Shown: positions 3,088 to 51,079 of the stretch, in pieces
How the letters are laid out: the number at the start of each line of letters is the position of its first letter
How positions within the stretch are numbered: position 1 is the first letter of the stretch
NCBI RefSeq assembly: GCF_900101985.1
Contig: NZ_FNAR01000007.1
Coordinates: forward strand, 62,001 to 126,000
From: Bhargavaea beijingensis
GTDB lineage: Bacteria; Bacillota; Bacilli; Bacillales_A; Planococcaceae
Direction: 5' to 3'
DNA: 64,000 nucleotides
The notes under the pieces: model-generated
What the model was told of the DNA's origin: nothing
Seen by the model: the letters and a program-made list of their open reading frames with translations, nothing else
The model's database searches: none
Made by a program: the position numbers and the translations under genes

Positions 3088-3114
3088 GAGTCAGACGAAT
3101 CAAATAGCGAACCT

Positions 3115-3805
<691 letters not shown>

Positions 3806-47346: not shown

Positions 47347-48705
47347 ATGGCATTTGAAGGGTTGGGCGAGCGCCTGCAGCAAACGCTTCAGAAAATAAAG
47401 GGCAAGGGGAAAGTGACCGAGGCCGATGTCAAAGAGATGATGCGCGAAGTCCGTTTCGCACTGATCGAGGCCGACGTCAACCTGAAGGTCGTCAAGGAAT
47501 TCGTCAAGAAAGTGAGCGAGCGCGCTGTCGGATCGGACGTCATGGAAAGCCTGACGCCGGGACAGCAGGTCGTCAAAATTGTCCGGGATGAACTGGCTGA
47601 CCTTATGGGCGGTGAAGCCGAAACGATCACATTCGCGAAAAAGCCGCCGACCGTCATCATGATGGTCGGGCTTCAGGGTGCCGGGAAGACCACGACAACC
47701 GGGAAGCTGGCAAACCTGATCCGAAAGAAATATAACCGGAAACCGCTACTTGTCGCTGCCGACGTCTACCGTCCGGCCGCAATCCAGCAGTTGGAGACGA
47801 TCGGCAAACAGCTCGGCATGCCGGTGTTCCAGCTCGGAACCGAGGAAAATCCTGTCGATATCGCCAAACAGGCTATTGCCAAGGCAAAGGAAGACCACCA
47901 TGATGTCGTCTTTATCGATACGGCCGGGCGGCTCCAGATCGACGAGAACCTCATGCAGGAACTCCGCGATATCTACGACGCGGTGCAGCCGGACGAGGTC
48001 TACCTCGTCGTCGACGCGATGACCGGACAGGTTGCCGCAAACGTGGCGGAGACATTTGACCAGCAGGTCGGCGTGACCGGTGTCGTTCTGACGAAGCTGG
48101 ACGGAGACACCCGTGGCGGTGCAGCGCTCTCGATCCGTTCCGTCACCGGCAGACCGATCAAGTTTGCCGGGATGGGCGAAAAGCTCGACGCGCTCGAACC
48201 ATTCCATCCGGAACGCATGGCTTCCCGGATTCTCGGGATGGGCGATGTCATGTCGCTGATCGAAAAGGCGCAGTCCAATGTCGATGAACAGAAAGCGAAG
48301 GAACTGGAGCAAAAGTTCCGGGACCAGTCGTTCACGTTCGACGACTTCCTTGAGCAGTTGGAGCAGGTAAAGAAAATGGGACCTCTCGATGAGATCCTCA
48401 AAATGCTTCCGGGAGCCGGCAAAATCAAGGGCATCGACAATGTGAAGGTGGACGAAAAACAGATGGGCCGTGTGGAGGCAGTCATCAAATCGATGACGAC
48501 CGAAGAAAAGTCCAAACCGGAAATCATCAACTCCAGCCGCAAAAAGCGCATCGCGCGCGGTTCCGGCACAACCATCCAGGAAGTCAACCGCCTGCTCAAA
48601 CAATTCGATGAAATGAAAAAGATGATGAAACAAATGTCCAACATGCAACAGGGCAAAGGAAAACGGAAAATGAAAATGCCGGGACTCGATTCGCTGTTCA
48701 AGTAA
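47347..48705 (+). CDS. ffh: Signal recognition particle protein Ffh
   Basis: Ffh binds signal sequences and 4.5S/6S RNA and pairs with FtsY. The 452-residue protein has the N domain, a G domain with GLQGAGKTTTTGKLA, DTAGRLQ and TKLDGDTRGGAAL, and a methionine-rich M domain ending MKKMMKQMSNMQQGKG. AGGAGG precedes the ATG. It is followed by a repeat-like intergenic element. Confidence 0.97.
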   Translation: MAFEGLGERLQQTLQKIKGKGKVTEADVKEMMREVRFALIEADVNLKVVKEFVKKVSERAVGSDVMESLTPGQQVVKIVRDELADLMGGEAETITFAKKPPTVIMMVGLQGAGKTTTTGKLANLIRKKYNRKPLLVAADVYRPAAIQQLETIGKQLGMPVFQLGTEENPVDIAKQAIAKAKEDHHDVVFIDTAGRLQIDENLMQELRDIYDAVQPDEVYLVVDAMTGQVAANVAETFDQQVGVTGVVLTKLDGDTRGGAALSIRSVTGRPIKFAGMGEKLDALEPFHPERMASRILGMGDVMSLIEKAQSNVDEQKAKELEQKFRDQSFTFDDFLEQLEQVKKMGPLDEILKMLPGAGKIKGIDNVKVDEKQMGRVEAVIKSMTTEEKSKPEIINSSRKKRIARGSGTTIQEVNRLLKQFDEMKKMMKQMSNMQQGKGKRKMKMPGLDSLFK

Positions 48706-48709
48706 GTTG

Positions 48710-49034
48710 CTTAATTCTGATGGATATATTCCCTTCTGTCCGATTGAAGCGAAAGGCCCAAGACTCCTCGGAAATGCTTCGCATTTCCTTTGTGCGAGAA
48801 GGATTCGAGGAAGCTTCTCTGTCCTGCGGGAAAAGCGTTAGCCGAAGACCCCGAGGATGTCGCGCAATGCTCCGCAACGCTGGTGCTTCTGCACGCAGAT
48901 GCCAATCTGCGTGTTGGCATCGGCTAAGGCAACGCCCGCGGACTAGCGGATGCCGTTACGAAGAACGGCGTCTGTGGCCAAAAGCGACAGCGTTGGCCGA
49001 CAAGGGCCTGTAGCGGAAATCAGCTGGAATTAAG
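48710..49034. repeat. Structured intergenic repeat-like element with inverted ends
   Basis: This 325-base non-coding stretch between ffh and rpsP is bounded by the inverted ends CTTAATTC (48710-48717) and GAATTAAG (49027-49034), each next to a matching TGAT/ATCAG. Inside are several hairpins: GGAAATGC/GCATTTCC near 48771, CACGCAGAT/ATCTGCGTG near 48892, GGCATCGGCTA pairing with TAGCGGATGCC around 48916-48953, and GCCGTT/AACGGC. The phrases TCCTGCGGGAAAAGCG and TAGCGGAAATCAGC resemble a repeat I recall from intergenic regions of many Bacillaceae and Planococcaceae; copy number cannot be tested here. No gene is supported in it. Confidence 0.6.
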
Positions 49035-49051
49035 GTGTTAAGAAAAAACAC

Positions 49052-49080
49052 TTTACAAAGCAATAATGACTTGGTAATAT
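49052..49080 (+). promoter_or_regulatory. Promoter of rpsP with upstream A-tract
   Basis: TTTACA, a 17-base spacer and TAATAT precede rpsP by about 35 bases. A run AAGAAAAAACAC just upstream of the -35 could act as an UP element, fitting a strongly expressed ribosomal gene. Confidence 0.75.
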
Positions 49081-49115
49081 ACTATCTTGTGTGAAACTAT
49101 TCGGAGGTGCTAACC

Positions 49116-49388
49116 ATGGCAGTTAAAATTCGACTTAAGCGTATGGGCGCAAAAAAGACGCCTTTCTATCGTATCGTAGTAGCAGATTCCCGTTCCCCTC
49201 GTGACGGCCGCCAGATTGAAACGATCGGCACGTACAACCCGCTCACGACGCCGGCTGAGCTCAAGATCGACGAAGAGCTTGCACTCAAATGGCTTCAGAA
49301 CGGCGCGAAGCCTTCTGATACAGTGCGCAACCTGCTCGCTACGCAGGGCATCATGGAGAAATTCCATAACGCCAAGACCGCAAAATAA
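49116..49388 (+). CDS. rpsP: 30S ribosomal protein S16
   Basis: S16 is an early-assembly protein of the small subunit. The 90-residue sequence has [25 protein letters not shown] and TIGTYNP, hallmarks of the family. The ATG after GGAGG is chosen over an in-frame GTG three codons upstream that lies within the ribosome-binding site. khpA, rimM and trmD follow, the usual rRNA and tRNA maturation cluster. Confidence 0.97.
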
Positions 49389-50959: not shown

Positions 50960-51079
50960 TTGCCTGGAGACACGGCCTGTGGTATGATAAGTCCCGTGCT
51001 TCTGCGTGAAGCACTCGATTACGGTGTTCCGCTGCAAAGGCAAGTTGTGCATGAGCATCTGTAGTAAGGAGAGGAAAAC
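50960..51079 (+). promoter_or_regulatory. rplS promoter and structured 5' leader
   Basis: TTGCCT (50960-50965), a 17-base spacer and TATGAT (50983-50988) with a TGG extension form a promoter just after trmD. The ~85-base leader includes a GTGCTTC/GAAGCAC hairpin (near 50995-51014). Bacilli are known to have an L19 autoregulatory leader at this position; whether this one fits that structure was not tested. Confidence 0.55.

Follow-up and report, generated by a model that had tools for sequence, protein, structure and literature searches.

The 64-kb window of Bhargavaea beijingensis DNA analysed here contains ffh and rpsP, with 412 bases between the ffh stop (48705) and the rpsP start (49118). 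Within this gap lies a 325-bp stretch that had been predicted to be a structured element with inverted ends. A folded and repeated element is indeed present at this position, but its borders are not those of the 325-bp stretch, as the conserved part extends from about 48742 to 49023. The unit consists of a covarying core of ~115 nt and three optional hairpin arms, reaching up to ~325 nt. The minimal core, as found in the copy at the same site in genome G003, comprises the outer stem (GATTG..AATC, GGCNC/GNGCC), stems P2 and P3, and an apical hairpin, and the arms form a mosaic from copy to copy. The features of the window copy and its flanks are as follows.

48742..49023, + strand: whole structured element, core and three arms; borders taken from copies at the same site and from other copies
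Within the element, + strand: outer stem of the whole element, GATTGAAGCG...GGCCC with GGGCC...GCGGAAATCAG
48742..48745, + strand: outermost stem, 5' strand GATT, pairing with 49018-49021; helix 1 as counted on other copies
49018..49021, + strand: outermost stem, 3' strand AATC, pairing with 48742-48745; helix 1 as counted on other copies
48824..48942, + strand: conserved core matched by covariance model R1 (40.7 bits, E = 7.9e-10)
Within the core, + strand: stems P2 (CTGCGG/CCGCGG) and P3 (GCGTTAGCC/GGCTAAGGCAACGC)
48762..48822, + strand: optional left arm, GACTCCTCGGAAATGC...GCATTTCC...CGAGG..., seen in nine aligned copies
48854..48919, + strand: optional inner arm, placed inside the minimal core's hairpin; absent from the site copy of G003, present in that of G005
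48942..49003, + strand: optional right arm, ACTAGCGGATGCCGTT..AACGGCGTCTGTGGCCAAAAGCGACAGCGTTGGCC; present in the site copy of G007, absent from those of G003 and G005
49052..49080, + strand: promoter-like TTTACA-N17-TAATAT of rpsP, directly downstream of the element, from a consensus scan
48710..48717, + strand: CTTAATTC, the predicted left end, probably outside the element
49027..49034, + strand: GAATTAAG, the predicted right end, in the flank beside the conserved rpsP promoter region

Model R1 has a single match in the window at E up to 1, and it matches the window copy only locally because this copy has all three arms. The left arm is conserved in Bhargavaea, Oceanobacillus, and one MAG of Bacillus; its set of nine aligned copies was obtained from 14 pattern matches by removing four chance matches and L167, which carries a deletion. 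The inner arm is also found in copies at other sites, and the right arm recurs in further Bhargavaea copies beyond the ffh-rpsP site.

Folding bore out the hairpins predicted for the interior. The plus strand of 48700-49045 reaches -142.8 kcal/mol (z = -4.62), with none of 100 shuffled sequences as low, and the minus strand of the element also folds strongly (z = -3.79, 0 of 100 shuffles as low). The phrases TCCTGCGGG and TAGCGGAAATCAGC, which had been associated with repeated intergenic elements, are present, and both lie inside the conserved core. Judging from the sequence, CCTGCGGGG could pair instead with CCCCGCAGG further downstream in the core. Two open frames inside the element, of 97 (48720-49013) and 69 amino acids (48711-48920), look mechanical.

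No Rfam 15 covariance model matched 48600-49120 at E up to 1, which rules out a known Rfam RNA, and a group I or group II intron was set aside on the same lack of an Rfam match. An integron attC-like site was set aside, as what we take to be its consensus does not fit the core. A plain intrinsic terminator was also set aside, since the core has no conserved T-run and the A-run on its sense strand is unconserved across genera; the terminator scan returned one weak terminator-like site versus 0.9 expected. Elsewhere in the window, Rfam models matched a PyrR binding site (3108-3238) and a ribosomal protein L19 leader (51021-51061).

The letters of the inverted pair CTTAATTC/GAATTAAG exist as predicted, but they are not the ends of the element. 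Perfect inverted 8-nt pairs separated by 200 nt or more arose in 117 of 500 dinucleotide shuffles of the intergenic region. Moreover, the orthologous site of G005 reads CTTAATTT / GATTTAAG, and the left CTTAATTC is missing in G001, G003, G006, and G007. Being frequent in shuffles and not kept at the orthologous site, the pair was rejected as element ends. With it falls the proposal of a 325-bp MITE bounded by these octamers, and no target duplication is definable at the site. The real terminal repeats in other copies are those of the different insertion sequence (IS) families enclosing the core. The wider expectation of a repeated intergenic element of Bacillaceae and Planococcaceae that is MITE-like, structured, or both was broadly right, and the window copy shares with MITEs that it is multicopy, intergenic, and free of a transposase.

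The ffh-rpsP site in related genomes

The rpsP loci were examined in 24 of the 33 genomes with a match. An element occupies the same site in six of the eight genomes of the genus (G000, G001, G003, G005, G006, and G007), and it is absent from G002 and G004, which have the most diverged rpsP (84 and 87% identity versus 96-99%). The empty sites that the original prediction had proposed to look for are thus at hand, but a target duplication is not definable, as the single nucleotide that separates the ffh stop from the conserved GTGTTAAG is too little for a duplication call. The interiors at the site vary: the G003 copy is minimal, that of G005 adds the inner arm, and that of G000 has three arms, while G001 and G006 have a different core sequence and G007 another. 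The site thus appears as an old location whose contents have changed readily.

Two of the 16 loci outside the genus lack the anchor motif and were not read, and 11 of the 14 readable ones have a short gap with the same promoter region. The remaining three comprise an insert in G013, a duplicated promoter motif in G015, and another short insert in G020. The G013 insert (L061), in a different genus, sits in the same gap and contains by eye a core-like GACTCCTGCGG; going by this resemblance, it hints at repeated use of the ffh-rpsP gap. Across 49034-49112, GTGTTAAGAAAAAACACTTTACA and the leader CTTGTGTGAAACTATTCGGAGGTG preceding rpsP are nearly invariant. The motif CTTGTGTGNAACT occurs in 22 of the 24 rpsP loci, and its upstream part is found twice in G015.

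As predicted, the element lies directly upstream of a ribosomal promoter-like sequence, the TTTACA-N17-TAATAT that begins at 49052. This location and the retention of the element in all six genomes of the clade would suit a host element that regulates ffh or rpsP in cis, such as an attenuator of the ribosomal protein operon. However, G002, G004, and 11 of the 14 readable loci of other genera lack the element and have the same promoter region, two more of these 14 have other short inserts, and only one has a core-like insert. Moreover, the same core lies at many unrelated intergenic sites, at which the flanking genes are convergent in 25 cases, tandem in 40, and divergent in 10. These counts cover 75 of the 86 sites, those flanked on both sides by predicted genes; open frames were called on length alone, those that overlap the core were excluded, and orthologous sites were counted separately. 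Such mixed orientation is therefore not the pattern expected of the leader of one gene, and we regard a host regulator as highly improbable. Because relatives without the element keep the same promoter region, the window copy is likely dispensable for rpsP, and it probably does nothing essential for this gene.

Copies, covariation, and strand of the core

The element is multicopy rather than single copy in its own genome (2.99 Mb, 43 contigs), where a DNA search gave 21 matches. Merging pieces within 400 nt left 19 places, the window copy included; six matches span just 31 nt, and several are located at the ends of contigs. An exact-pattern scan of genome contigs found 86 sites in 85 stretches, belonging to Bhargavaea, Perspicuibacillus, Oceanobacillus, Salisediminibacterium, Sporosarcina, Alteribacter, and a MAG labelled Bacillus. 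Some core bases were prescribed by the pattern, and their invariance is thus uninformative in this set. With model R1 at E up to 0.001, the core was found in 75 of 121 genomes (its own and 120 relatives) and 23 of 57 genera; among 299 genomes from 118 genera sampled across the class, 84 genomes and 27 genera had it. Counts of the core per genome are lower bounds, with at most 28 (relatives) and 11 (class) candidates scored in each. In G027 (3.3 Mb), a sample of 20 stretches, each 20 kb long and together 400 kb, gave five matches, which corresponds to about 41 per genome if evenly distributed. The core of L126 had no match among phage records. A 1,566-bp Planococcus record encodes a metallo-hydrolase and has no mobile gene annotated, and on Priestia plasmids, core copies lie under genes annotated as hypothetical proteins.

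The relatives also provided strong covariation, the second expectation attached to the original prediction. For this analysis, 60 copies were clustered at 90% identity into 20 representatives, of which 16 were kept; the four left out are L118, L121, and L167, all starting within the left arm, and L182, without the hairpin. The 16 copies were aligned by sequence alone (MAFFT), and the structure was drawn by hand from folds and the alignment. In the resulting structure of 33 pairs, 92.0% of cells are paired, and 18 of the 33 pairs have changed on both sides. The covariation score is 0.352, versus a shuffled mean of 0.123 (0 of 500 shuffles as high) and at most 0.082 for slid structures. Thus, as expected of a structured RNA, the core covaries on an alignment made independently of structure. 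P3 reads GCGTT/AACGC, GCAAC/GTTGC, or GCATG/CATGC across genera, and P2 is invariant in the 16 copies, partly owing to the search pattern.

Covariation of this strength could mean that the IS uses the core as a regulatory RNA, made outward or with the transposase message and acting in cis or in trans on transposase expression. The comparison of strands points the same way. Scored on 86 first matches, the reverse-complement model is on average 1.0 bit lower, with the sense model better in 56 and the antisense model in 30 (45 and 26 once identical score pairs are collapsed), where both models use RNA pairing rules. G-U cells also outnumber A-C cells, by 27 to 3 in alignment A1 (11 to 3 once a pair set by the search pattern is excluded) and by 137 to 38 in the model-fitted A2, counted on 70 non-redundant rows. 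A precedent is found in ISPpu9, for which small RNAs encoded next to tnp are reported (PMC8450116). However, the strand preference suggested by these models is weak, comes in part from one T-G pair, and is in part built into RNA-based models, and the antisense alignment covaries as well (87.2% paired, score 0.337). The orientation to the transposase varies too, the core being antisense and upstream in IS1182 and sense and downstream in ISL3, and no promoter for the core was identified. A regulatory RNA is thus unlikely in our estimation.

Insertion sequences that carry the core

Many Bhargavaea copies adjoin a transposase of the IS1182 family (NCBIfam NF033551; DUF772), for which a 176-aa piece matched at 9.7e-59 and 199.5 bits, against a cut-off of 270. 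A Pfam scan of the 24-aa start of the transposase gave no match, whereas the longer piece did match. Beside the window copy, neither the IS1182 ends TCAGACTGTAGACAAAG nor a transposase was seen on reading the sequence; around other copies, both are present. Locus L199 is a complete IS1182-type element of 1,731 bp (reverse complement, 1213-2944) with terminal repeats CCAGACTGTAGACAAAG/TTTTGTCTACAGTCTGA. Its core is antisense and upstream of the transposase; on one side of the core lies the left end with its terminator-like hairpin, and on the other a promoter-like TTGAGG-N17-TATAAT that precedes the transposase. An exact 52-nt repeat containing a 50-bp palindrome flanks L199 on both sides. Locus L202 is laid out alike, with an exact 22-nt flank repeat and stops in the transposase. 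In both loci, the same terminator-like hairpin stands on both flanks, so that each flank keeps one. On two Peribacillus plasmids, the core lies ~86 nt before an annotated IS1182 transposase, antisense and in a similar layout. Altogether, 11 of 30 fetched IS1182 loci have a core match, several of the 11 overlapping, and many of the 30 end at contig ends. IS ends were checked in 11 loci, among which the two core-bearing ones (L199 and L202) have the repeats and nine have neither.

IS1272, of the IS1182 family, is reported to target inverted repeats or hairpins (PMC5678879). The core might accordingly act as DNA, either as an extruded or single-stranded hairpin that binds a transposase or host factor or as a landing site for a palindrome-seeking IS such as IS1182. 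Both the location of L199 and L202 in duplicated hairpins and the near equality of the antisense and sense models are consistent with such a role. However, what is duplicated at L199 and L202 is a hairpin other than the core, the cores of complete elements lie inside the terminal repeats, and many unpaired positions are invariant, part of them fixed by the search pattern. We consider a DNA role of this kind quite unlikely.

The core is also found in other families. G093 has two intact ISL3-family copies of 1,557 bp (NF033550, 334 bits for L335), which have 8-bp duplications AAAATATT and TTATTTAT and a sense core between the transposase and the right end. Four ISL3 copies of G021 are without the core and share 58.8% amino acid identity over 362 residues with the G093 ISL3. 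In the ISL3 element of G083, whose transposase is split over two frames, a core lies within each end and faces outward. Nine of the 30 ISL3 loci searched have a core, with 14 matches, some of them the same places twice. As the core occurs in only 11 of 30 IS1182 and nine of 30 ISL3 loci, the module is dispensable. Short derivatives occur as well: G021 has seven core-bearing MITEs of 208 bp with ends GGGTCTTTACC...GGTGTAGAGCC, whose 8-bp flanks match at six to eight positions (three of seven perfectly), these flanks being AT-rich and taken without a shuffled control.

Between outward cores lie pieces of ISL3 and, in G093 and G027, pieces of ISLre2 (NF033529, UPF0236), none of which reaches the NCBIfam cut-off; a search for ISLre2 copies gave no intact one with a core. 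An ISLre2 with the same leader in G083 (L381, G083:C50, 5' side) has, in place of the core, a 53-nt imperfect palindrome beginning CCGCTCCCTGCAAGTTGGAATCC.., self-complementary at 46 of 53 positions. On a Radiobacillus plasmid, an IS110 stands between two cores, which may or may not belong to it. The IS association as a whole was checked at a minority of the class copies and is given as raw counts.

A set of 93 loci yielded 122 matches. All 23 tabulated core pairs are divergent, with their 3' ends outward; the table omits duplicates at the same place, another divergent pair (L244), and weak matches that fall on a core itself. Neighbours in the same orientation exist in G017 (G017:C1:372989 and 373360), G182, G340, and L346. 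Core pairs as duplicates of a palindromic IS1182 target were rejected, since such duplicates would have the same orientation and all 23 pairs are divergent.

The core is a repeat with a covarying structure, and it is contained in complete IS1182 and ISL3 elements and in MITEs with target duplications, while ISLre2 relics lie between two cores. Our best explanation, in which our confidence is evenly balanced, is that the core is a conserved module residing largely just inside the ends of IS and MITEs of Planococcaceae and neighbouring families, which is carried by its IS host and structurally shields it, and that the window copy is a relic. With the same even confidence, we propose that one folding module is common to three or more unrelated transposase families (IS1182, ISL3, and ISLre2), as an outward end piece that spreads between them and persists intergenically after IS decay rather than forming a repeat family of its own. 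The core would move with its host IS and not alone, and once the IS ends decay, it would be left behind or exchanged between copies. A strong fold placed between an IS end and the transposase promoter, or between the transposase and the other end, would most likely blunt transcription or translation entering from outside and so shield the IS against read-through. This idea of shielding arises because the L199 core stands before the promoter-like sequence of the transposase and because an unrelated hairpin substitutes for the core in one ISLre2. Blocking transcripts that come from outside is a known need of insertion sequences. The window copy, which has no terminal repeats, would be such a relic: its insertion between ffh and rpsP probably dates to the ancestor of the six-genome clade, it has been retained since, and its arms have probably changed or been swapped. 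Against this explanation, the window copy has no terminal repeats and no definable target duplication that would trace its arrival. The same-orientation neighbours, the many IS1182 and ISL3 loci without a core match, and the lack of a conserved T-run also count against it.

An independent mobile or selfish element that inserts by preference into non-coding IS ends and rides along would also account for a core that is shared by IS1182, ISL3, and ISLre2 contexts and by MITEs whose terminal repeats differ, as well as for copies without recognisable terminal repeats such as that of the window. However, no enzyme of its own was seen, and the site compared (ffh-rpsP) gave no clean pair of empty and filled sites with a junction at the core borders. 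Moreover, the outward position in unrelated families is unexpected under random insertion. Such an element is in our view rather improbable.

Relation to known systems

The shared IS module proposed above resembles several known systems in part. As in ISL3 and IS1182 MITEs, some core-bearing copies are short and transposase-less, with terminal inverted repeats and target duplications. Unlike in MITEs, the window copy is without such repeats and shows no definable target duplication, and the conserved part is the interior, common to families with different terminal repeats. The core-bearing IS1182 of Bhargavaea sits in a duplicated hairpin, which agrees with one of the pathways drawn for IS1272/IS1182 (PMC5678879). 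However, IS1272 replaces its target hairpin, and the core is absent from the compared part of that description (PMC5678879). IStrons likewise join an RNA-structured module to IS of different families (PMC4227781), whereas the core is no group I intron by Rfam (E up to 1) and lies inside IS ends and intergenically. The stem-loop repeats bcr1 and Bhal-1/Bhal-2 are also intergenic folded repeats of Bacillus-type genomes (PMC2267715); they are likened here by description and not by sequence, and Bhal-1/Bhal-2 could overlap the core. ISPpu9 likewise has RNA genes next to its transposase that regulate it, but it is a single Pseudomonas IS (PMC8450116), whereas the core recurs in several families.

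No description of the core repeat was found in open papers, most subscription papers being outside the scope of the search, and as far as we found, the module is unnamed so far. The classification of IS rests on the transposase and terminal repeats, and the short non-coding ends are little regarded. If our explanation is true, a covarying module is a shared IS part across several families, with the core in 27 of the 118 genera sampled in the class. It would also explain a recurring intergenic repeat that lies at contig ends in the Bhargavaea beijingensis assembly as well.

In Perspicuibacillus, 10 of 11 copies examined (L124, L131, L135, L138, L140, L164, L174, L178, L184, and L197) are nested, enclosed by a GGCTGGGACATA...TGTCCCAGCC stem. 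Several of these nested copies lie between A- and T-runs, resembling a giant two-way terminator.
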